The position numbers were made by a program, and so were the translations under genes. The notes under the pieces were generated by a model. That model saw only the letters and a list, made by a program, of their open reading frames with translations. It was not told the origin of the DNA and ran no database searches. Below, piece after piece: positions 57 through 11,346 of a DNA stretch of 42,830 nt. Where the stretch lies: positions 17,108 to 59,937 of the forward strand of contig NZ_MVBK01000051.1 in the NCBI RefSeq assembly GCF_002000365.1. The letters run 5' to 3'. This stretch comes from Thioalkalivibrio denitrificans. GTDB lineage: Bacteria > Pseudomonadota > Gammaproteobacteria > Ectothiorhodospirales > Ectothiorhodospiraceae. Each line of letters begins with the position of its first letter. Within the stretch, counting starts at the first letter, position 1.

Positions 57-85
57 TTGACGCCCGCACCGGGGGTGCTGACAAT
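57..85 (+). promoter_or_regulatory. Candidate sigma70 promoter for the PA2779/PA2778 operon
   Basis: TTGACG at 57-62 and GACAAT at 80-85 are separated by 17 bases, giving 5/6 and 4/6 matches to the -35 and -10 consensus. Transcription would start near 92, about 30 bases ahead of the first start codon at 123, which has GGAG at 112-115. This is pattern matching only. Confidence 0.45.
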
Positions 86-122: not shown

Positions 123-521
123 ATGAGAACAAGAGAAATCACCAAGCGTTTCATCGCCCTGCTGTGTGTCTTTGCCCTCGTGGGCGCGAGCCTGAGCCCC
201 GCCATCGCGAGCATGGTGGGCACTGACCAGATGATCGCCGCGGAACAGGCACAGGTGGATCGTGAACGCCTGCTGGAGACCCTCTCCCGTGACGACGTGC
301 GCAATCAGCTCACTGCCATGGGTGTCGATCCCGCTCAGGCCGAAGCACGCGTGATGCGCATGACCGATGCGGAAGTGGCCGCGCTCAACGAACGCCTGGA
401 TGAACTGCCGGCCGGCGGCAATGCCCTGCTTGGCGCGCTGCTGATCATCTTCATCGTGTTCGTCATTACCGACGCGATCGGCGCCACGGACATCTTCCCG
501 TTCATCCGGCCGGTCAACTGA
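123..521 (+). CDS. PA2779 family protein, first copy
   Basis: A 132-residue exported protein of the PA2779 family; molecular function unknown. Residues 1-29 form a Sec signal peptide ending in AIA-SMVGT. The middle (about 40-95) is charged and helical, with the family-like stretch AAEQAQVDRERLLETLSR. Residues 103-120 form a strongly hydrophobic segment, followed by a short tail ending TDIFPFIRPVN. ELPAGG lies just before the hydrophobic segment and could be a processing site. GGAG at 112-115 supports the ATG at 123. It is first in an apparent operon with a close paralogue at 572 and a C39-like peptidase at 955. The topology suggests an envelope protein whose C-terminus is membrane-inserted. 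Family assignment is from recognition of the sequence; no catalytic residues are seen. Confidence 0.85.
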   Translation: MRTREITKRFIALLCVFALVGASLSPAIASMVGTDQMIAAEQAQVDRERLLETLSRDDVRNQLTAMGVDPAQAEARVMRMTDAEVAALNERLDELPAGGNALLGALLIIFIVFVITDAIGATDIFPFIRPVN

Positions 522-571
522 GCCTGACCCTGGTCGTCCCGCGACACAACAACTCATAAGGAGACAGACCG

Positions 572-958
572 ATGATTTCAGTGCGTCGACTGACCGTGAT
601 GGCCGCCACCCTGCTCCTGTTCGCGTTGGTGACGTCCCCGCTTCATGCCTCGATGGTGGGCACGGGCGAGATACTTGCCGCCGAGCAGGCGCACGCGGAT
701 CGTGCCCAGCTGCTCAAGACTCTGTCACGGGAAGACATGCGTCGACAGATGGAACGTATGGGCGTGACGCCTGAACTGGCCGAGGAACGCGTGGCACGCA
801 TGACCGACGAGGAAGTCGCCGCCATCAACGAGCGCCTCGGCGAACTGCCGGCCGGTGCGGGCACACTGGAAGTGGTGGCCATCATCTTCCTGGTGCTCGT
901 GCTGCTGGACGCCCTGGGCGTGACCGACATCTTCGCCTTCGTCCGTCCGGTTCGATGA
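572..958 (+). CDS. PA2779 family protein, second copy
   Basis: A 128-residue paralogue of the protein at 123-521, with the same plan: signal peptide (about 1-26, ending LHA-SMVGT), charged helical middle with AAEQA and MTDEEVAAINERL, a hydrophobic segment near 98-116, and the tail TDIFAFVRPVR. The site matching ELPAGG in the first copy reads ELPAGA. AAGGAGA at 556-564 sits at good spacing for the ATG at 572. Its stop overlaps the start region of the peptidase gene at 955, so the two are probably translationally coupled. Duplication of this family beside its PA2778 partner suggests dosage or partner diversification. Function unknown. Confidence 0.85.
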   Translation: MISVRRLTVMAATLLLFALVTSPLHASMVGTGEILAAEQAHADRAQLLKTLSREDMRRQMERMGVTPELAEERVARMTDEEVAAINERLGELPAGAGTLEVVAIIFLVLVLLDALGVTDIFAFVRPVR

Positions 959-1971
959 TGAGTGCCAGCCCGGACGCCCGCCGGTCGGCGGGCGTCCCTT
1001 TTTTTTTCACCTGGACCATTCTGCTGGTGTCACTGCTGGCCATCGCCGGCTGCGCCACACCCACCCAGACCCGCGAGATCGCCCGCAGCGCGCCCGCCGG
1101 GCTGCCCGAGCGCGTCGAGCTTTCCCACGTGGACTTCTTCCCGCAGGAGGACTACCAGTGCGGGCCTGCGGCGCTGGCCACCCTGCTTACGGATCGGGGT
1201 ATCGACATCGGCCCGGACGCGCTGGTGGGCGAGGTGTACATACCCGAGCGGCGCGGCAGCCTGCAGACGGAGATGCTGGCGGCGGCCCGGGCGCGGGGCC
1301 TGGTGGCCTATGTGCTCGAACCCGAGCTGGAGGATGTGCTGGCCGAGGTCGCCGCGGGCAACCCGGTGCTGGTGTTCCAGAACCTGGGCATCAACATCAT
1401 CCCTCGCTGGCACTACGCCGTGGTGATCGGATATGACCTCGCGGACCGCGAGATCTACCTTCGCTCGGGAACCATCGAACGGCATGTGAACAGCTTCAGC
1501 CGCTTCGAGCGCACCTGGCTGCGCGGAAACCGCTGGGCGTTCGTGACGGTGCCGCCGGACACCCCTCCGGCCACCGCCAGCGCCCTGCCCTGGCTGCGCT
1601 CCGCCAACGCGCTTGAGACAACGGGACTGATCAATCCCGCCGCCACTGCCTACGAAACCGCCACGCGCGAGTGGCCCGAGCACCCCGTGGGCTGGATCGG
1701 CCTCGGCAACACACGCTACGCAGCCCGGGACCTGGAAGGCTCGGAAGAGGCCTTTCGCGGCCTCCTGGAGCATCAACCCGATGCACACGCCGGATGGAAC
1801 AACCTCGCGCACGTGTTGAAGGCCCGGGGTTGCGGCGACGAGGCCCGTGCCGCCGCCCGATGCGCCATCGCCCTGGACCCGGACAACGCCCGTTACCGGC
1901 AGACCGGCGACACAATGAGCGACGCACCCTCGGAGCACGCCTGCGCACCGGTGACCTGCCCCGTGGAGTGA
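955..1971 (+). CDS. PA2778 family cysteine peptidase, C39-like lipoprotein with TPR repeats
   Basis: A 338-residue protein. An N-region with arginines (residues 9-10) and a hydrophobic stretch end in the lipobox LAIAGC, giving lipid-modified Cys33. Residues 55-200 form a papain-like C39-type peptidase: EDYQCGPAAL carries the likely nucleophile Cys69, and RWHYAVVIGYD carries His153. The C-terminal part (about 210-310) has TPR-like helices (GWIGLGNTRYAARDLEGSEEAF and the following repeat). It probably acts outside the cytoplasm on a peptide or protein, and the adjacent PA2779 proteins are the obvious candidate substrates (inference). ATGATG at 955/958 overlaps the upstream stop. The frame runs through a perfect terminator hairpin; no better start with a plausible signal-peptide N-region exists downstream. 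Confidence 0.85.
   Translation: MMSASPDARRSAGVPFFFTWTILLVSLLAIAGCATPTQTREIARSAPAGLPERVELSHVDFFPQEDYQCGPAALATLLTDRGIDIGPDALVGEVYIPERRGSLQTEMLAAARARGLVAYVLEPELEDVLAEVAAGNPVLVFQNLGINIIPRWHYAVVIGYDLADREIYLRSGTIERHVNSFSRFERTWLRGNRWAFVTVPPDTPPATASALPWLRSANALETTGLINPAATAYETATREWPEHPVGWIGLGNTRYAARDLEGSEEAFRGLLEHQPDAHAGWNNLAHVLKARGCGDEARAAARCAIALDPDNARYRQTGDTMSDAPSEHACAPVTCPVE
972..1007 (+). terminator. Strong intrinsic terminator inside the 5' end of the PA2778-family gene
   Basis: An 11-bp perfect stem, GGACGCCCGCC (972-982) and GGCGGGCGTCC (987-997), encloses a GGTC loop and is followed by C998 and nine T residues (999-1007). This is a textbook rho-independent terminator. It starts 14 bases after the stop of the second PA2779 gene but lies within codons 6-18 of the next gene, so it may act as an attenuator that lowers expression of the peptidase relative to the PA2779 proteins. 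Confidence 0.85.
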
Positions 1972-2648: not shown

Positions 2649-3182
2649 ATGAAACTGCGTCGCACCTTCATCCCACTCGCTGCCGCCCTGCTGGCCAGCG
2701 GCCCCGCCCTCGCGCAACAGACCACCGTGGATCCCGCCGTGGCCGTGCTCGGCGGCATGATGTTCCCGGACGTCCGCGGGGCCGACGACGACTTCATCTA
2801 CGGCCTCGAACTGTCCTGGAATTGCCACATCCTCCGGCCGGCACAGGGCCGCGTGCGTCATTTCGTAAGCGTCACCCGCTACGATGACAGCCCGCTCAGG
2901 ATGACCAGCGCGGAACTCAATTCCCATTACACCATGGACCTCACGCCCGACCTGGCCCTCGGTTTCGGCCCCGGCATCGGCTACGCGCGCACCGACATCG
3001 GCGACGATGACCACGGCCTGTGGTCGTTCCAGTTGGGCGCCCACATGCACCTGCGCCTCCCCAACAACCTGTTCCTGGGCGGCGAGGCCCGCTACCAGTT
3101 CACCGAGAGCGCCCGCTTCGAGGGACGCAACCAGGACGCGGACAACCTGCGCATCCTCGGCAAGATCGGCATCCATTTCTGA
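2649..3182 (+). CDS. Outer-membrane beta-barrel protein, probable
   Basis: A 177-residue exported protein of unknown role. AGGAGG at 2638-2643 favours the ATG at 2649. Residues 1-22 are a clear signal peptide (MKLRR, then LAAALLASGPALA, cleavage after ALA). The mature part alternates polar and hydrophobic residues in short strands and ends in KIGIHF, a C-terminal aromatic residue typical of Bam substrates. GFGPGIGYAR and FLGGEARYQF resemble beta-hairpins of small OmpA/OmpW-like barrels, but no specific family is recognised. It stands alone between two direct copies of the family A palindromic repeat, so it may be a transferred or rearranged single-gene unit. Confidence 0.65.
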   Translation: MKLRRTFIPLAAALLASGPALAQQTTVDPAVAVLGGMMFPDVRGADDDFIYGLELSWNCHILRPAQGRVRHFVSVTRYDDSPLRMTSAELNSHYTMDLTPDLALGFGPGIGYARTDIGDDDHGLWSFQLGAHMHLRLPNNLFLGGEARYQFTESARFEGRNQDADNLRILGKIGIHF

Positions 3183-3210: not shown

Positions 3211-3486
3211 TTCACCACGAAGCACACGAAGGGCACGAAGAACTTCCAAAGAAGTATGTCTCTCGCAAAGGCGCGAAGCACGCAAAGGAAGGCGTGAATG
3301 AATGGGTGGGGCGGGCTGCGCCCGCCTTGCCGCACGGCGTCACCTGCGGCGGCAGCCAGGGCCGCCCTGTGGCCCCTGAACGCACAGGTCCAATATCAAG
3401 AACTTGTGTCTTCTTGGCGTCCTTGGCGCTCTTTGCGAGAGAAATGTCTTTTCTCATTACGATCCTTCGTGTGCTTCGTGGTCGAA
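3211..3486. repeat. Nested palindromic repeat, family A, copy b
   Basis: The outer left arm CCACGAAGCACACGAAGG starts near 3214. The inner left arm TCTCTCGCAAAGGCGCGAAG is near 3257, the inner right arm GCGCTCTTTGCGAGAG near 3426, and a shortened outer right arm CCTTCGTGTGCTTCGTGG ends near 3482. It shares with copy a the GGGCGGGCTGCGCCCGCC hairpin and the GAACTT(A/G)TG segment, in the same orientation. Confidence 0.8.
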
Positions 3487-3575
3487 CTACGGGTCTCGCG
3501 TAAGTCCGCAGCTTGCACCGAGGCACCGGATTCCCGACCATCACCCCGGAAGGCAAACCAGAACAATCGGGATTC

Positions 3576-6287
3576 ATGGACACTGCAAACGGTGAGACAC
3601 CCTCCTCCCGGGACTGGCACACCCTCTCCGCCGAGGACGCGCTGTCACACTGGCAGAGCGACCGCCAGGGGCTGAGCGCGGAGGCGGCGAAGGAACGCCT
3701 TTCCCGCTACGGACCGAACAGCCTGCCCGCCCCCGAAAAGGCGGGGCCGCTGCTGCGCTTTCTGCGTCACTTCCACAACGTCCTGATCTACATCCTGCTG
3801 GTGGCGGCGCTGGGCACGGCGTTGCTGGGCCATTGGGTGGACACGGGCGTGATCCTCGCCGTGGTGCTGATCAACACCATGATCGGGTTCATCCAGGAGG
3901 GCAAGGCGGAAAAGGCCCTGGATGCCATCCGTGAGATGCTCTCCCCCAAGGCGGCAGTGATGCGCGACGCCAAGCGTCGCGAGGTGCCCGCCAACGAACT
4001 GGTGCCCGGTGACATCGTGTACCTGCAGGCGGGGGACCGGGTACCCGCCGACCTGCGTCTGCTGGAGGTGAAGAACCTGCGCGTGGAGGAGGCGGTGCTC
4101 ACCGGTGAGTCGGTGCCGGTGGAGAAGGCCGTTGATCCCGTGGCCGCGGACGCCCCGCTGGGCGATCGCACCTGCATGGCATTCTCCGGCACCCTGGTGG
4201 CGTTCGGGCGGGGTGCGGGTGTGGTGGTGGGGACCGGCGCCCACACGGAGATCGGGCGCATCTCCGAGATGCTGGGCGAGGTGCAGAGCCTGCAGACGCC
4301 CCTGGTGCGCCAGATGGAGCAGTTCGGCCGCTGGCTGGCCGTGGTGATCATCTTCATCTCCGCTGCCACCTTCGCCTTCGGCTACTGGGTGCGCACCTAT
4401 CCCCTGGACGAGATGTTCCTGGCGGCGGTCAGCCTCGCGGTGTCCACCATACCGGAAGGCCTCCCGGCCATCATGACCATCGCGCTGGCCATCGGCGTGC
4501 AGAAGATGGCCAGGCGTAACGCCATCATCCGCCGTCTGCCGGCAGTGGAGACCCTGGGATCGGTCTCCGCCATCTGTTCGGACAAGACCGGGACGCTTAC
4601 CCGCAACGAGATGACCGTGCAGACGGTTGTCACGGCGAAACAGCGATTCGATGTCACCGGGGTGGGCTACGAACCCCGCGGGGGATTCCTGCTGGACGAT
4701 GACGACGTGGATCCCGACGACCATCCGGCGCTCAACGAGACCCTGCTCGCGGGACTGCTGTGCAACGACGCGGTGCTCTACGAACGTGCGGGCCAGTGGG
4801 TGATGGAAGGCGACCCCACCGAGGGCGCCCTGATCACCGCCGCCTGCAAGGCGGGGCTCGATCCGCACCAGCAGCACGAGCGGCTGCTGCGCACCGACGT
4901 GATCCCCTTCGAGTCGGACCACAAGTACATGGCCACCCTGCACCACGACCACGAAGGTCACGGGCGAGTGTTCCTGAAGGGGGCGCCGGAGCGGGTGCTG
5001 TCCCTGTGCGAAAGCCAGCGGGAAGGAGGCAGGAACGCGCCCGTCGACCGGGAGGCCTGGCACCGGCACATGGAGGAGATCGCGGCAAGGGGCCAGCGGC
5101 TTCTGGCGGTGGCGGTGCGCGACGCCGCGCCGAAGCAACGCGACCTCACCTACGCGCACATCGAGGAAGGCGACTTCACTCTGCTGGCGCTGCTGGGCAT
5201 CATTGATCCGCCCCGGGACGAGGCCATCGCGGCCGTGAAGGAATGCCGGGAAGCGGGCATCGGCGTGAAGATGATCACCGGCGATCACCTGGTCACCGCC
5301 CGGGCCATCGGCGAACAGCTGGGTATGGGCAACGGCATCGCCGCGCTCTCGGGCCATGAGCTGGAAGACATGGACGAGGAGGCCCTGCGCCGGGCGGTGC
5401 AGGAGGCCGACGTGTTCGCCCGCACCACGCCGGAGCACAAGCTGCGCCTGGTGCAGGCCCTCCAGGCGGACGGGCGGATCGTGGCCATGACCGGCGACGG
5501 CGTGAACGATGCCCCGGCGCTGAAACGCGCCGACGTGGGCGTGGCCATGGGAATGAAGGGCACCGAGGCCGCCAAGGAGGCGGCCGAGATGGTGCTGGCC
5601 GACGACAACTTCGCCTCCATCGCCCACGCCGTGGAGGAAGGGCGCACCGTCTACGACAACATCCGCAAGGCCATCCTGCACACCCTGCCCACCAACGCGG
5701 GCCAGTCGCTCACCATCATGATGGCCATCCTCATGGGGCTGGCCCTGCCGCTCACGCCGGTGCAGGTGCTGTGGGTAAACATGGTGACCTCGGTGACGCT
5801 GGCCATGGCGCTGGCCTTCGAGCCGGCGGAGCCGGGAGTGATGAAGCGTCCCCCCCGGCGCCCCGACGCGCCGCTGCTCTCGGGCTTCCTGCTCTGGCGC
5901 ATCCCGTTCGTGGCCATCCTGCTGTGGGCCGGCACCTTCGGACACTTCGTGTACATGGAAGAGGTCCTGGGTGTCTCCGACGAACTCGCACGTACCGTGG
6001 CCATCAACACGCTGGTCGCCGGCCAGGCCTTCTACCTCCTGAACCTGCGGCTCATCCACCAGCCGGTGCTCATCGGCTGGGAGGTGTTCCGCTCCCGGGC
6101 CATGTGGATCGCCATCGGGGTGCTTATCGTCCTGCAGTTTACGTTCACCTTCGCACCGGTCATGAACACCCTGTTCGGCACCACCCCGGTGCCACTGGAA
6201 CACTGGTGGCGTATCCTTCTGTTCGGGCTGTTGGTGTTCATCATCGTGGAGACCGAGAAGGTCGTCATCCGGAAGTTCTTTCCATGA
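3576..6287 (+). CDS. P2-type cation-transporting ATPase, first of a tandem pair
   Basis: A 903-residue P-type ATPase with the N-terminal cation-ATPase domain (WHTLSAEDAL...), about ten membrane segments, and all catalytic motifs: TGES (176-179), PEGLP in M4 (293-297), the phosphorylation site DKTGTLT (Asp336), KGAPE in the nucleotide domain, and GDGVND (640-645). It drives ATP-dependent cation export. By similarity of M5/M6 it belongs with bacterial CtpF/Pma1-like P2 pumps rather than classic SERCA: SERCA Glu771 and Asp800 positions read Gln and Ser (TNAGQ, VNMVTS), so Ca2+ specificity is uncertain. The ATG at 3576 was chosen because earlier TTG codons lie at the border of repeat b. A close paralogue follows at 6545. 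Confidence 0.9.
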   Translation: MDTANGETPSSRDWHTLSAEDALSHWQSDRQGLSAEAAKERLSRYGPNSLPAPEKAGPLLRFLRHFHNVLIYILLVAALGTALLGHWVDTGVILAVVLINTMIGFIQEGKAEKALDAIREMLSPKAAVMRDAKRREVPANELVPGDIVYLQAGDRVPADLRLLEVKNLRVEEAVLTGESVPVEKAVDPVAADAPLGDRTCMAFSGTLVAFGRGAGVVVGTGAHTEIGRISEMLGEVQSLQTPLVRQMEQFGRWLAVVIIFISAATFAFGYWVRTYPLDEMFLAAVSLAVSTIPEGLPAIMTIALAIGVQKMARRNAIIRRLPAVETLGSVSAICSDKTGTLTRNEMTVQTVVTAKQRFDVTGVGYEPRGGFLLDDDDVDPDDHPALNETLLAGLLCNDAVLYERAGQWVMEGDPTEGALITAACKAGLDPHQQHERLLRTDVIPFESDHKYMATLHHDHEGHGRVFLKGAPERVLSLCESQREGGRNAPVDREAWHRHMEEIAARGQRLLAVAVRDAAPKQRDLTYAHIEEGDFTLLALLGIIDPPRDEAIAAVKECREAGIGVKMITGDHLVTARAIGEQLGMGNGIAALSGHELEDMDEEALRRAVQEADVFARTTPEHKLRLVQALQADGRIVAMTGDGVNDAPALKRADVGVAMGMKGTEAAKEAAEMVLADDNFASIAHAVEEGRTVYDNIRKAILHTLPTNAGQSLTIMMAILMGLALPLTPVQVLWVNMVTSVTLAMALAFEPAEPGVMKRPPRRPDAPLLSGFLLWRIPFVAILLWAGTFGHFVYMEEVLGVSDELARTVAINTLVAGQAFYLLNLRLIHQPVLIGWEVFRSRAMWIAIGVLIVLQFTFTFAPVMNTLFGTTPVPLEHWWRILLFGLLVFIIVETEKVVIRKFFP

Positions 6288-6294
6288 ACGAAAC

Positions 6295-6554
6295 TAGCCC
6301 GCATATCTCACCGGTCGGACACCGGCTGGCGCACAAGAGGCGGAAACATAAGTGGAATACGTTGAAATGGTCGCCAACCTCAGCATGACAGACTGTTCCC
6401 GCCGGTGTCCTATCGCGGTTCAGGCTCGTCTTCGCGCCCGTATGCTTGCTCTTCACTCAACCCATAGCTACGGCTATGGGTTTCGCTCCAGAGCGGCGCC
6501 TACGAACGCGAATCCTTCGCCTGCTCCCGCGATCCCGGTGAGATATGCGGGCTA
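6295..6554. mobile_element. 260-bp MITE-like element with 20-bp perfect terminal inverted repeats
   Basis: TAGCCCGCATATCTCACCGG (6295-6314) and its exact reverse complement CCGGTGAGATATGCGGGCTA (6535-6554) bound a 260-bp non-coding unit. If the outermost TA is the target duplication, the true TIR is 18 bp, as for IS630/Tc1-type insertion (inference). A 10-bp stem AACCCATAGC/GCTATGGGTT with a TACG loop lies inside (6459-6482). It fills the whole gap between the two ATPase genes, starting 7 bases after the first gene's stop. A diverged second copy starts at 42709. No transposase is encoded, so it would be non-autonomous. Confidence 0.8.
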
Positions 6555-9253
6555 AGCAGGACACCGCCTGGCACAGCCGGGGGGTGGAGGACGTACTGGA
6601 GGCGCTGGAGGTCTCCGACAAGGGGCTGGGCACGGAGGACGTGAAGGCGCGCCTGGAGCGTTACGGCCCCAACCGACTGCCGCCGCCGGAACGGGCCGGA
6701 CCGCTGAAGCGTTTCCTGCTCCAGTTCCACAACGTGCTGATCTACATCCTGATCGCGGCCGCGGTGGGCACCGCCTTCCTTCAGCACTGGGTGGACACCG
6801 GCGTGATCCTCGGCGTGGTGCTGATCAACGCCGTCATCGGCTTCATCCAGGAGGGCAAGGCGGAACAGGCCCTGGACGCCATCCGCAGCATGCTCTCGCC
6901 CAAGGCGCTGGTGCTGCGCGACGGCGAGCGTCATACCGTGCCCGCCGAGGACCTGGTGCCCGGCGACATCGTGTTCCTGCAGGCCGGCGACAAGGTGCCC
7001 GCGGACCTCAGACTGCTGCGTGTCCACAACATGCGCATCGACGAGGCGGTGCTGACCGGGGAATCAGTGGCCGTGGACAAGCAGGCCGACCCCGTGGACG
7101 AGGACGCGGACCTGGGCGATCGCGCCAGCATGGCCTTCTCCGGAACGCTGGTCGCCTACGGCCAGGCACGCGGGGTGGTAGTGGGCACCGGCGCCGAGAC
7201 CCAGATCGGCCGGATCTCCACCATGCTGGGCGAGGTGGAGCAGCTCACCACACCGTTGCTTCGGGACATTGCCGTGTTCGGACGCTGGCTGTCCGTGGCC
7301 ATCGTGCTGCTTGCCGGCTTCACCTTCGTCTTCGGCTACTGGTTCCGGGATTACGACATCCTGGAGACCTTCCTGGCGGCCGTCAGCCTGGCCGTGGCGG
7401 CCATCCCCGAGGGTCTGCCCGCCATCATGACCATCACGCTGGCCATCGGCGTGCAGCGCATGGCGGCACGCAACGCCATCATCCGGCGGCTCCCGGCCGT
7501 CGAGACCCTGGGTTCCGTCACCACCATCTGTTCCGACAAGACCGGCACGCTCACACGCAACGAGATGACGGTGAAATCCATCGTCACCGCAGAGGACGTC
7601 TTCGAAGTGGGCGGCGTGGGTTACGAGCCCCACGGCGGGTTCTCGCGCGACGGTCAGGACCTGGAACCGGACGAGCACCCGGTGCTCTCCGAGGCGCTGC
7701 GCGGAATCCTGCTTTGCAACGATGCGGAGGTGCGCCAGCGCGACGGCGAATGGCGTCTGGAGGGGGACCCGACGGAAGGTGCCCTGGTCACTGCGGCCCT
7801 CAAGGGCGGGCTGGATCACAAGGAGACCAACGAACTCTATCCCCGGGACGACGTGATCCCCTTCGAGTCCTCCTACAAGTTCATGGCCACCCTGCACCAT
7901 CACCACGAGGGGAACCACAGCTTCGTGTATCTCAAGGGTGCGCCGGAACGGGTGCTGGCCGTGTGCGATCGCGAACGCACCGTGGACGGCGACCGGGAGA
8001 TCGACAACGATCGCTGGCAACAGCAGATGGACGAGATCGCCGCGAAGGGGCAGCGCCTGCTGGCGCTGGCCGTCAACGACGTGGAAGCGGACAAGCGCAC
8101 GCTGGAGTTTCCCGACATCGAGGACGGCGGACTCACGATGGTGGCCTTGTGCGGCATCATCGATCCGCCCAGGGACGAGGCCATCGAGTCGGTGGCGGAA
8201 TGCCAGTCGGCGGGCATCGTGGTCAAGATGATCACCGGCGATCACGGCGTCACCGCCCGGGCCATTGCCGACAATCTCGGCATCGACACGGCGGGCGGCG
8301 TGCTCACCGGCCACGAACTGGAGAAGATCTCCGACGAGGAGATGAAGCAGACGGTGCGCGAGGTGGACGTGTTTGCCCGCGCCACACCGGAACACAAGCT
8401 GCGGCTGGTGAAGGCCATCCAGGCCAACGGCCACGTGGTGGCCATGACAGGCGACGGCGTCAACGACGCACCGGCGCTGAAGCGCGCCGACGTGGGCGTG
8501 GCCATGGGCATCAAGGGCACCGAGGCTTCCAAGGAGGCCGCGGAGATGGTGCTGGCCGATGACAATTTCGCCTCCATCGCCCACGCCGTGGAGGAAGGGC
8601 GCACGGTCTACGACAACCTGCGCAAGGCGATCCTCTTCCTGCTGCCCACCAACGGCGGCCAGGCCTTCACCATCGTGGCCGCCATCCTGCTGGGTCTGAC
8701 CCTGCCGCTGACCCCCGTGCAGGTGCTGTGGGTGAACATGGTGACCGCGGTCACGCTGGCGCTGGCACTGGCCTTCGAGCCCACCGAGCCCGGCGTAATG
8801 GAACGCCCGCCTCGCCCACCCGAGACGCCCATCCTTTCGGGTTTTCTCATCTGGCGGGTGGCGTTCGTCTCGGCCCTGCTGGTGGCGGGCACCTTCGGCC
8901 ACTTCCTGTGGATGGAGCAGCAGGGCGTGGCCGTGGAGATAGCCCGCACTGCAGCCATCAACACCCTGGTCATGGGGCAGCTCTTCTACCTGTTCAACAG
9001 CCGCTACATCCTGGAGCCCGTGTTCAACCGGGCGGGCCTGTTCGGCAGCCGCGCTGTGCTGATCGCCATCGGCGTGCTCATCGTACTGCAGGGCCTGTTC
9101 ACCTATGCACCGCCCGTGCAGTTCCTGTTCGGCACCGCCGCCCTCGGGCTCGAGGAGTGGGGCCGCATCCTCGCCTTCGGCGTGGCCCTGTTCGTGCTGG
9201 TGGAACTGGAGAAAGCGTTCCTCAAATGGCGCGAGGTGGGGGCGGATCGGTAG
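6545..9253 (+). CDS. P2-type cation-transporting ATPase, second of the pair
   Basis: A 902-residue paralogue of the pump at 3576-6287, with long identical blocks along the whole length. It keeps TGES, PEGLP, DKTGTLT (Asp331), KGAPERVLAVC and GDGVNDAPALKRADVGVAMG. M5 reads TNGGQ and M6 reads VNMVTA, so as in the first copy the acidic SERCA ligands Glu771 and Asp800 are replaced (Gln, Ala). The pair may form homologous pumps with slightly different ion sites. The ATG at 6545 and codons 2-4 (Arg-Ala-Lys) lie in or at the end of the 3' terminal repeat of the inserted element. The only upstream purine-rich stretch, GGTGAG, is 2 bases from the ATG, so expression may be altered. An in-frame GTG at 6584 is an alternative start with no better ribosome site. 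Confidence 0.88.
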   Translation: MRAKQDTAWHSRGVEDVLEALEVSDKGLGTEDVKARLERYGPNRLPPPERAGPLKRFLLQFHNVLIYILIAAAVGTAFLQHWVDTGVILGVVLINAVIGFIQEGKAEQALDAIRSMLSPKALVLRDGERHTVPAEDLVPGDIVFLQAGDKVPADLRLLRVHNMRIDEAVLTGESVAVDKQADPVDEDADLGDRASMAFSGTLVAYGQARGVVVGTGAETQIGRISTMLGEVEQLTTPLLRDIAVFGRWLSVAIVLLAGFTFVFGYWFRDYDILETFLAAVSLAVAAIPEGLPAIMTITLAIGVQRMAARNAIIRRLPAVETLGSVTTICSDKTGTLTRNEMTVKSIVTAEDVFEVGGVGYEPHGGFSRDGQDLEPDEHPVLSEALRGILLCNDAEVRQRDGEWRLEGDPTEGALVTAALKGGLDHKETNELYPRDDVIPFESSYKFMATLHHHHEGNHSFVYLKGAPERVLAVCDRERTVDGDREIDNDRWQQQMDEIAAKGQRLLALAVNDVEADKRTLEFPDIEDGGLTMVALCGIIDPPRDEAIESVAECQSAGIVVKMITGDHGVTARAIADNLGIDTAGGVLTGHELEKISDEEMKQTVREVDVFARATPEHKLRLVKAIQANGHVVAMTGDGVNDAPALKRADVGVAMGIKGTEASKEAAEMVLADDNFASIAHAVEEGRTVYDNLRKAILFLLPTNGGQAFTIVAAILLGLTLPLTPVQVLWVNMVTAVTLALALAFEPTEPGVMERPPRPPETPILSGFLIWRVAFVSALLVAGTFGHFLWMEQQGVAVEIARTAAINTLVMGQLFYLFNSRYILEPVFNRAGLFGSRAVLIAIGVLIVLQGLFTYAPPVQFLFGTAALGLEEWGRILAFGVALFVLVELEKAFLKWREVGADR

Positions 9254-11012: not shown

Positions 11013-11346
11013 GCTGTTTGAACCACGAAGCGCACGAAGGGCACGAAGAACAGATTGTTGCTGTTCGGATCGGGGTATATCCGAGCTTGCCTCCGACCCA
11101 TGGTCCGGTTGCTTCGTCGGCCGGAAAGGAAATATCTCTCGCGAAGCCGCAAAGCCCGCAAAGAAGGCCTAAGAGCAATGAACTGATTTCCTCTTTGCGG
11201 GCTTCGCGGCTTTGCGAGAGTCCCTGCATCTTGTCATCGAAGCAACCGGACAGGCGGTCTGTCAGCAGAGCCGGGTAAGCCCTTGACCCCCACAGCACAA
11301 GTCCCTTTTTCTTCGTGCCCTTCGTGTGCTTCGTGGTTCAAACAGC
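11013..11346. repeat. Nested palindromic repeat, family A, copy c (full length)
   Basis: A 334-bp imperfect palindrome in three tiers. The outer arms of about 38 bp run from GCTGTTTGAACCACGAAG at 11013 to CTTCGTGGTTCAAACAGC at 11329-11346 with one mismatch. The middle arms are GTCCGGTTGCTTCG (11103-11116) and CGAAGCAACCGGAC (11238-11251). The inner arms are 11136-11164 and 11192-11220 (27 of 29 positions pair). The 428-base gap before chrB holds only this and the chrB promoter. Confidence 0.85.

Follow-up and report, generated by a model that had tools for sequence, protein, structure and literature searches.

Substrates of double-glycine peptidases end in GG, GA or GS at positions -2/-1 and typically carry Leu at -7 and -12, Glu at -8 and a hydrophobic residue at -4 (PMC6959990; PMC6363468), with Ala nearly always at -3 in the substrates of LahT (PMC6363468). 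The catalytic Asp of the corresponding C39 domains is D115 in PCAT1 and D117 in LahT (PMC6959990; PMC6363468). In other bacteria a different enzyme, rhombosortase, processes Gly-rich motifs that immediately precede a C-terminal membrane helix (PMC3237569). The PA2779 family (NF033919; DUF6627, PF20332) and the PA2778 family (NF033920) are already named in NCBIfam under consecutive accessions, from which we would conclude that the curators probably knew of their pairing. In the literature that we searched there is no functional study, cleavage or structure of PA2779, PA2778 or DUF6627; one paper places a PA2779 gene among strong promoters, the promoter picked in Stutzerimonas stutzeri DSM4166 being about equal to a gentamicin-gene promoter used as yardstick (PMC10155442), and another mentions the PA2779-PA2780 intergenic region.

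Members of both families stand at the start of the window analysed here, a stretch of 42,830 nt from Thioalkalivibrio denitrificans (NZ_MVBK01000051.1, 17,108 to 59,937). Three plus-strand genes form a tight, operon-like run: two PA2779-family genes (123..521, 132 aa, NF033919 146 bits, PF20332 215 bits; and 572..958, 128 aa, 130 and 156 bits; both of the long form), followed by a gene for a PA2778-family cysteine peptidase (955..1971, 338 aa, NF033920 352 bits in a full-length match, 1-255) with a lipoprotein signal, a C39_2 domain (38 bits) and a TPR domain. The cut-offs are 40 bits for NF033919, 27 bits for DUF6627, 150 bits for NF033920 and 24 bits for C39_2. This agrees with the initial annotation, which had placed two PA2779-family proteins in 123-1971, each with a signal sequence and with ELPAG(G/A) directly before a C-terminal hydrophobic segment, and had read the next gene as an extracytoplasmic C39-like peptidase. 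The stop codon of the second PA2779 gene and the start codon of the peptidase gene share the four bases ATGA (955..958), and translational coupling of the two is possible. A sigma-70-like promoter match, TTGACG-17-GACAAT (57..85, plus strand), lies 37 nt ahead of the start codon of the first PA2779 gene; with 9 of 12 consensus positions, and one match found against 0.2 expected in shuffled sequence, it is weak evidence. The same genome has one more PA2779 copy, on a different contig, and its only PA2778-family peptidase over the cut-off is the one in the window.

Several other features of the window are recorded here in passing. Directly after the peptidase gene is a small GDCCVxC-domain protein (1980-2204; NF041374, 109 bits) whose position beside the pair is not conserved, followed by an outer-membrane beta-barrel protein (2652-3182; OMP_b-brl, 31 bits, cut-off 28.7) and by two tandem genes resembling cation-transporting P-type ATPases (3513-6287 and about 6467-9240, by reading of the first open reading frame), the second of which has blocks 75-87% identical to the first at a start-to-start spacing of 2954-2957. 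The interspersed repeats ACCACGAAGCACACGAAGGGCACGAAG and TCTCTCGCAAAGGCGCGAAG occur between genes in both orientations (2232-2261, 3211-3240, 11019-11048 and, inverted, 11306-11338; also 2348-2390, 3256-3298 and 11132-11174).

The two families are inherited as a unit. Over the cut-offs, PA2779 is found in 97 and PA2778 in 93 of 370 genomes, and all 93 genomes with PA2778 carry both (Fisher p about 2e-83, ignoring relatedness). In the four genomes with PA2779 only, the gene is at a contig end twice, PA2778 is broken by frame changes once, and once PA2779 is without a signal peptide. The pair occurs in Pseudomonas and in roughly one in four genomes sampled from its class, and at least 24 bacterial families hold genomes with and without it, always with both genes or neither as read from the presence tables. 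Each of the 82 named loci carries PA2779, these loci having by construction been found through PA2778. Gene order is equally constant: of the copies that share a strand with a peptidase gene and are no more than 2.5 kb from it, 100 precede that gene and none follows it, with a gap between the profile matches that is mostly about 150 nt. There are multiple PA2779 copies per peptidase, some of them distant in the genome. Among the neighbours of the 82 loci there is no third conserved gene, and no recurring transporter, beyond lineage synteny. Two plasmid records carry the pair, and PA2778 was not found in phage records. Covariation between PA2779 and PA2778 (MI-APC, 131 pairs, effective 107) gave scattered signals and no clear interface.

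What the PA2779 proteins have most firmly in common is the short motif before their membrane helix, ELPAGG in protein 1 (402..419, with P96-A97-G98-G99) and ELPAGA in protein 2 (842..859), which we regard as a putative cleavage motif. In an alignment of 153 distinct relatives (about 101 effective), drawn from the 370 genomes of the class and 397 of the phylum, P96 is conserved at 95%, A97 at 97% and G98 at 95%, and position 99 is Gly, Ala or Ser in 94% (50%, 29% and 15%); PAGG occurs 69 times, PAGA 43 and PAGS 18, leaving 23 other forms. No other four-residue run of the mature alignment reaches the mean information of residues 96-99; earlier in the protein, G67 and R76 (window numbering) do not vary and E84 is conserved at 95%. 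The initial annotation had made its reading depend on conservation of a Gly-Gly or Gly-Ala site across the family, and Gly-[Gly/Ala/Ser], the -2/-1 pair of double-glycine substrates, is present in 139 of the 153. A profile built from the C-terminal motif and helix hit PA2779 proteins alone in those pair-bearing genomes that were searched, the next matches having E >= 0.08, and we have therefore set aside the idea of a general sorting signal.

The remaining positions follow the double-glycine rule in part. With G98-(G/A/S)99 taken as -2/-1, PA2779 fits at -1, -2, -3 and -12 and fails at -4, where it has Pro, at -7 and at -8; with A97-G98 as the pair, -4 and -7 fit, and Gly at -2 and the residue at -12 do not. 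The hydrophobic positions are -5, -8 and -12 rather than the -4, -7 and -12 of known substrates, and the full set of hydrophobic residues at -4, -7 and -12 with Glu at -8 is absent. A caution expressed earlier was that the preceding residues do not have exactly the classical leader spacing; the register is mixed, with -5 and -8 hydrophobic in place of -4 and -7.

Both window proteins have a signal sequence that closes with a signal-peptidase-I-like A-x-A/S; in protein 1 it comprises residues 1-29 (123..209) and ends A-I-A, with A27 at 70% and A29 at 92% in the family. After it, protein 1 continues with periplasmic helices, PAGG, a membrane helix at about residues 101-117 (423..473) and the tail TD-x-x-G-x-T-D-I-F-P-F, which in the family alignment of long forms reads T-D-x-x-G-x-T-(D/N)-(I/V)-F-x-F. 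An AF2 model of the mature protein, with a pLDDT of only 69, has helices at 4-25, 28-36, 41-50, 53-65 and 73-89, the last being the membrane helix, and it puts the motif in a low-confidence linker between this helix and the last periplasmic one; no structure in the PDB matched PA2779 with E below 3. The 20 residues before the helix have a mean net charge of -2.7 (negative in 148 of 153), and the tail has a mean of +0.7 (zero or positive in 121 of 144 long forms). Because of the signal peptide, and of this acidic stretch set against a neutral-to-positive tail, the predicted topology is N-outside and C-inside, with the hydrophobic segment in the inner membrane and the tail on the inside. A cut in the periplasm would then free the N-terminal helices, four in the model, and leave the hydrophobic part behind.

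Membrane helix and tail are together conserved as well as or better than the N-terminal domain (identity 42% against 34%; mean information 2.5-2.8 against 2.1 bits), which is odd for a mere anchor and counts against a cleavage model. There are also eight short forms, all of which stop right after the helix, keeping AG(G/A) and the helix and losing the tail. One of them is the third copy of the genome studied here, PAGGSLSTIQLLLIIIIIILLV (contig C35, 3048-3353, minus strand), which has PAGG and a helix without a tail, is not beside a peptidase, and has an NF033919 match that extends beyond its stop codon. Most short forms are encoded away from a peptidase gene or stand first in a tandem of two, with the peptidase elsewhere in the genome; one is the sole PA2779 upstream of its peptidase. 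Since the short forms keep motif and membrane helix without the tail, these two are the common C-terminal core of the family. The RPV(N/R) ending to which attention had been drawn is real in the window, where the proteins end RPVN and RPVR, and is not family-wide, its Pro being conserved at only 46%.

The peptidase, which is about 60% identical to its nearest named relatives, has its lipobox Cys at residue 33 (LLAIAGC; 1051..1053), followed by Ala at +2. Among 137 relatives the Cys is present in 100%, and +2 is Ala in 64%, Thr in 11% and Ser in 10%. Under the Lol rule a lipobox Cys followed by Ala is of the outer-membrane type, and the sequence thus suggests an outer-membrane anchor. Such an anchor, set against a proposed cutting site at the surface of the inner membrane, is a distance problem for cleavage. 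The C39-like domain (1129..1461) is followed by a TPR domain (1594..1890; TPR_2 and TPR_14 over cut-off, TPR folds at Z about 17). Near the C-terminus, Cys residues 330 and 335 (window 1942-1959) are conserved at about 90% where this stretch exists and may form a disulfide.

In an AlphaFold model of the mature protein (pLDDT 97, pTM 0.92), the peptidase has the fold of double-glycine leader peptidases. VIA-align superposed it on 3erv, a C39-like protein (Z 18.4, 151 aligned, 2.0 A), on 6mpz, a double-glycine protease with leader peptide (Z 17.2, 135 aligned, 2.2 A), and on the ComA peptidase 3k8u (Z 16.9, 133 aligned, 2.0 A); a sequence profile found 3erv with E 1e-6 and, weakly, 6mpz (E 0.02) and ComA (E 0.3). 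A stretch GSLQxEMxAAxR is strongly conserved in the peptidase family; as we read the alignment, it corresponds to the part of ComA and 6mpz that precedes the second strand and on which leader helices dock. The oxyanion Gln (Q64, 1144-1146), the catalytic Cys (C69, 1159-1161) and the catalytic His (H153, 1411-1413) are conserved at 97%, 99% and 100% in the 137 relatives, and because of this we infer that the peptidase is active. The position of the catalytic Asp, by alignment to 3erv, 6mpz, ComA and AvrRpt2, is S171 (1465-1467), just past the Pfam match, and is Ser in 88% and Thr in 9% of the relatives (97% together). This is a real departure from C39; activity is therefore less certain, and our confidence in it is lowered.

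Inside the first codons of the peptidase gene there is a terminator-like hairpin with a T-run (972..1007, plus strand), having 11 pairs of which 10 are G-C. A comparable element is found in other pairs, mostly 34-63 nt past the PA2779 stop: a strict hairpin search detected it in 32 of 131 pairs and in none of 131 coding controls, and a minimum free energy of -15 kcal/mol or lower was reached in 32 of 130 pairs, where shuffles would give 2.4, and in no coding control; with the limit at -10 kcal/mol it was 44 of 130, with 11.6 expected. The hairpin is a probable attenuator. Its enrichment at this position, where between a quarter and a third of relatives have one, suggests partial termination between the substrate and enzyme genes, and hence more substrate than enzyme.

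We consider cleavage of PA2779 by the PA2778 peptidase, at PAG(G/A/S) in the periplasm, to be the best explanation of this putative processing module, and a reasonably probable one. The three genes would then form a self-contained two-component module working outside the cytoplasm. PA2779 would be exported by Sec, lose its signal peptide and become anchored in the inner membrane by its C-terminal helix, its small helical domain lying in the periplasm; the C39 domain of the PA2778 lipoprotein would dock on the helix just before this anchor and cut at Pro-Ala-Gly-(Gly/Ala/Ser), in the linker between domain and anchor. The cut would free the helical domain of about 70 residues into the periplasm, or pass it to the TPR domain, while the conserved hydrophobic stub would remain in the membrane; the hairpin and T-run at the start of the peptidase gene may hold the enzyme scarcer than its substrates. 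The export-and-process idea of the initial annotation survives in this form as to the conserved site, the linked genes and the fold of the peptidase, and not as to the product it named: a short hydrophobic peptide freed on the outer face of the membrane is at odds with the charge pattern and signal peptide, which would put the hydrophobic piece in the inner membrane.

It may be instead that PA2779 and PA2778 form a stable complex without cleavage, in which PA2779 is a tether or regulator of a peptidase acting on another substrate, a cell-wall peptide or another protein, and PAG is a flexible, helix-breaking hinge beside the membrane that docks in the peptidase groove. The near-obligate pairing would suit a cofactor as well as a substrate, and the replaced Asp, the strongly conserved membrane helix and tail, and the TPR domain, a typical protein-binding fold, all speak for it. 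A hinge would however tolerate Asn, Asp or Pro at position 99, which is instead almost confined to the three residues allowed at -1 by double-glycine peptidases, behind a nearly fixed Ala and Gly; and several PA2779 copies per peptidase, together with the terminator-like element, favour an excess of substrate over a one-to-one subunit. On balance we think a stable complex unlikely, and less likely still that the product is the C-terminal hydrophobic peptide, helix plus tail, as a small membrane-active or signal peptide. By analogy with double-glycine systems the cargo would be the part after the cut, and helix and tail are more conserved than the N-terminal domain (T116-D117, G120, T122 and F125 in long forms), but the predicted topology spans the inner membrane with the tail inside, the eight short forms have no tail at all, and the loci offer no exporter or other conserved neighbour. 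Peptide signals and bacteriocins, moreover, usually diversify and seldom stay conserved as this sequence has.

Least probable, and only barely credible in our view, is that some other protease, of the rhomboid or site-2 type for instance, cuts at the motif, and that PA2778 has an unrelated role in the same operon. The rhombosortase precedent would allow it, but a C39 peptidase shares both phylogenetic profile and operon with PA2779, the C-terminal signal is in no other protein of the pair-bearing genomes searched, and the 82 loci have no third recurring neighbour beyond lineage synteny, one rhomboid lying about 3.4 kb off in Azoarcus. Classical bacteriocin or microcin export was rejected, since the peptidase comes without an ABC transporter, the putative substrate carries a signal peptide for Sec, and there is no recurring third gene.

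Cleavage of PA2779 by PA2778, if it occurs, would be the work of a double-glycine-type peptidase outside the cytoplasm, without a transporter and on a membrane-anchored protein. We would go further only tentatively, and with less confidence than we have in the cleavage itself, in proposing a new periplasmic maturation system, defined by a C39 lipoprotein peptidase with a Cys-His-Ser/Thr site, Sec-exported and anchored substrates with PAG(G/A/S) beside the membrane, and enzyme dosage set by a terminator. Such a system would unite the processing of double-glycine substrates with C-terminal sorting signals in a single module. DUF6627 and PA2778 would gain a function from an enzyme, a substrate and a cutting site that can be tested.

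Among described systems, the C39 domains of PCAT1, ComA and LahT are alike to the window peptidase in fold (Z about 17) and in Cys, His and Gln, and PA2779, like their double-glycine leaders, has Ala-Gly-(Gly/Ala/Ser) after an amphipathic helix. In contrast to PCAT/AMS, the peptidase lacks a fused ABC transporter, is an extracytoplasmic lipoprotein with TPRs and has its Asp replaced, and PA2779, unlike the substrates of those systems, is Sec-exported and membrane anchored, with hydrophobic spacing -5/-8/-12 and Pro at -4. GlyGly-CTERM proteins likewise have a signal peptide and a Gly-rich motif directly before a C-terminal helix, and are co-distributed with, and often adjacent to, rhombosortase (PMC3237569). 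That enzyme is an intramembrane serine protease, whereas PA2778 is a cysteine peptidase with a soluble domain and hence not a rhomboid partner; PA2779 and PA2778 are moreover a dedicated pair rather than one enzyme with many targets, with another motif and with a conserved tail in long forms. As to the basic C-terminus of GlyGly-CTERM proteins, the PA2779 tail carries a net charge of at least +1 in 79 of 144 long forms, and short forms have no tail. LapG (PMC4694147, PMC3032545) is a periplasmic cysteine protease that frees an anchored protein, the adhesins LapA and CdrA, as we propose for PA2778; it belongs to another protease family, its substrate is a large surface adhesin, and its control by c-di-GMP through LapD has no counterpart seen at PA2779/PA2778. 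Compared finally with the annotated relatives of NF033919, NF033920 and DUF6627, the window has the same gene order, with tandem PA2779 copies and a third, short copy elsewhere in the genome; what is added here to these known families is the motif statistics, the topology, the Asp-to-Ser change, the short forms and the probable attenuator.
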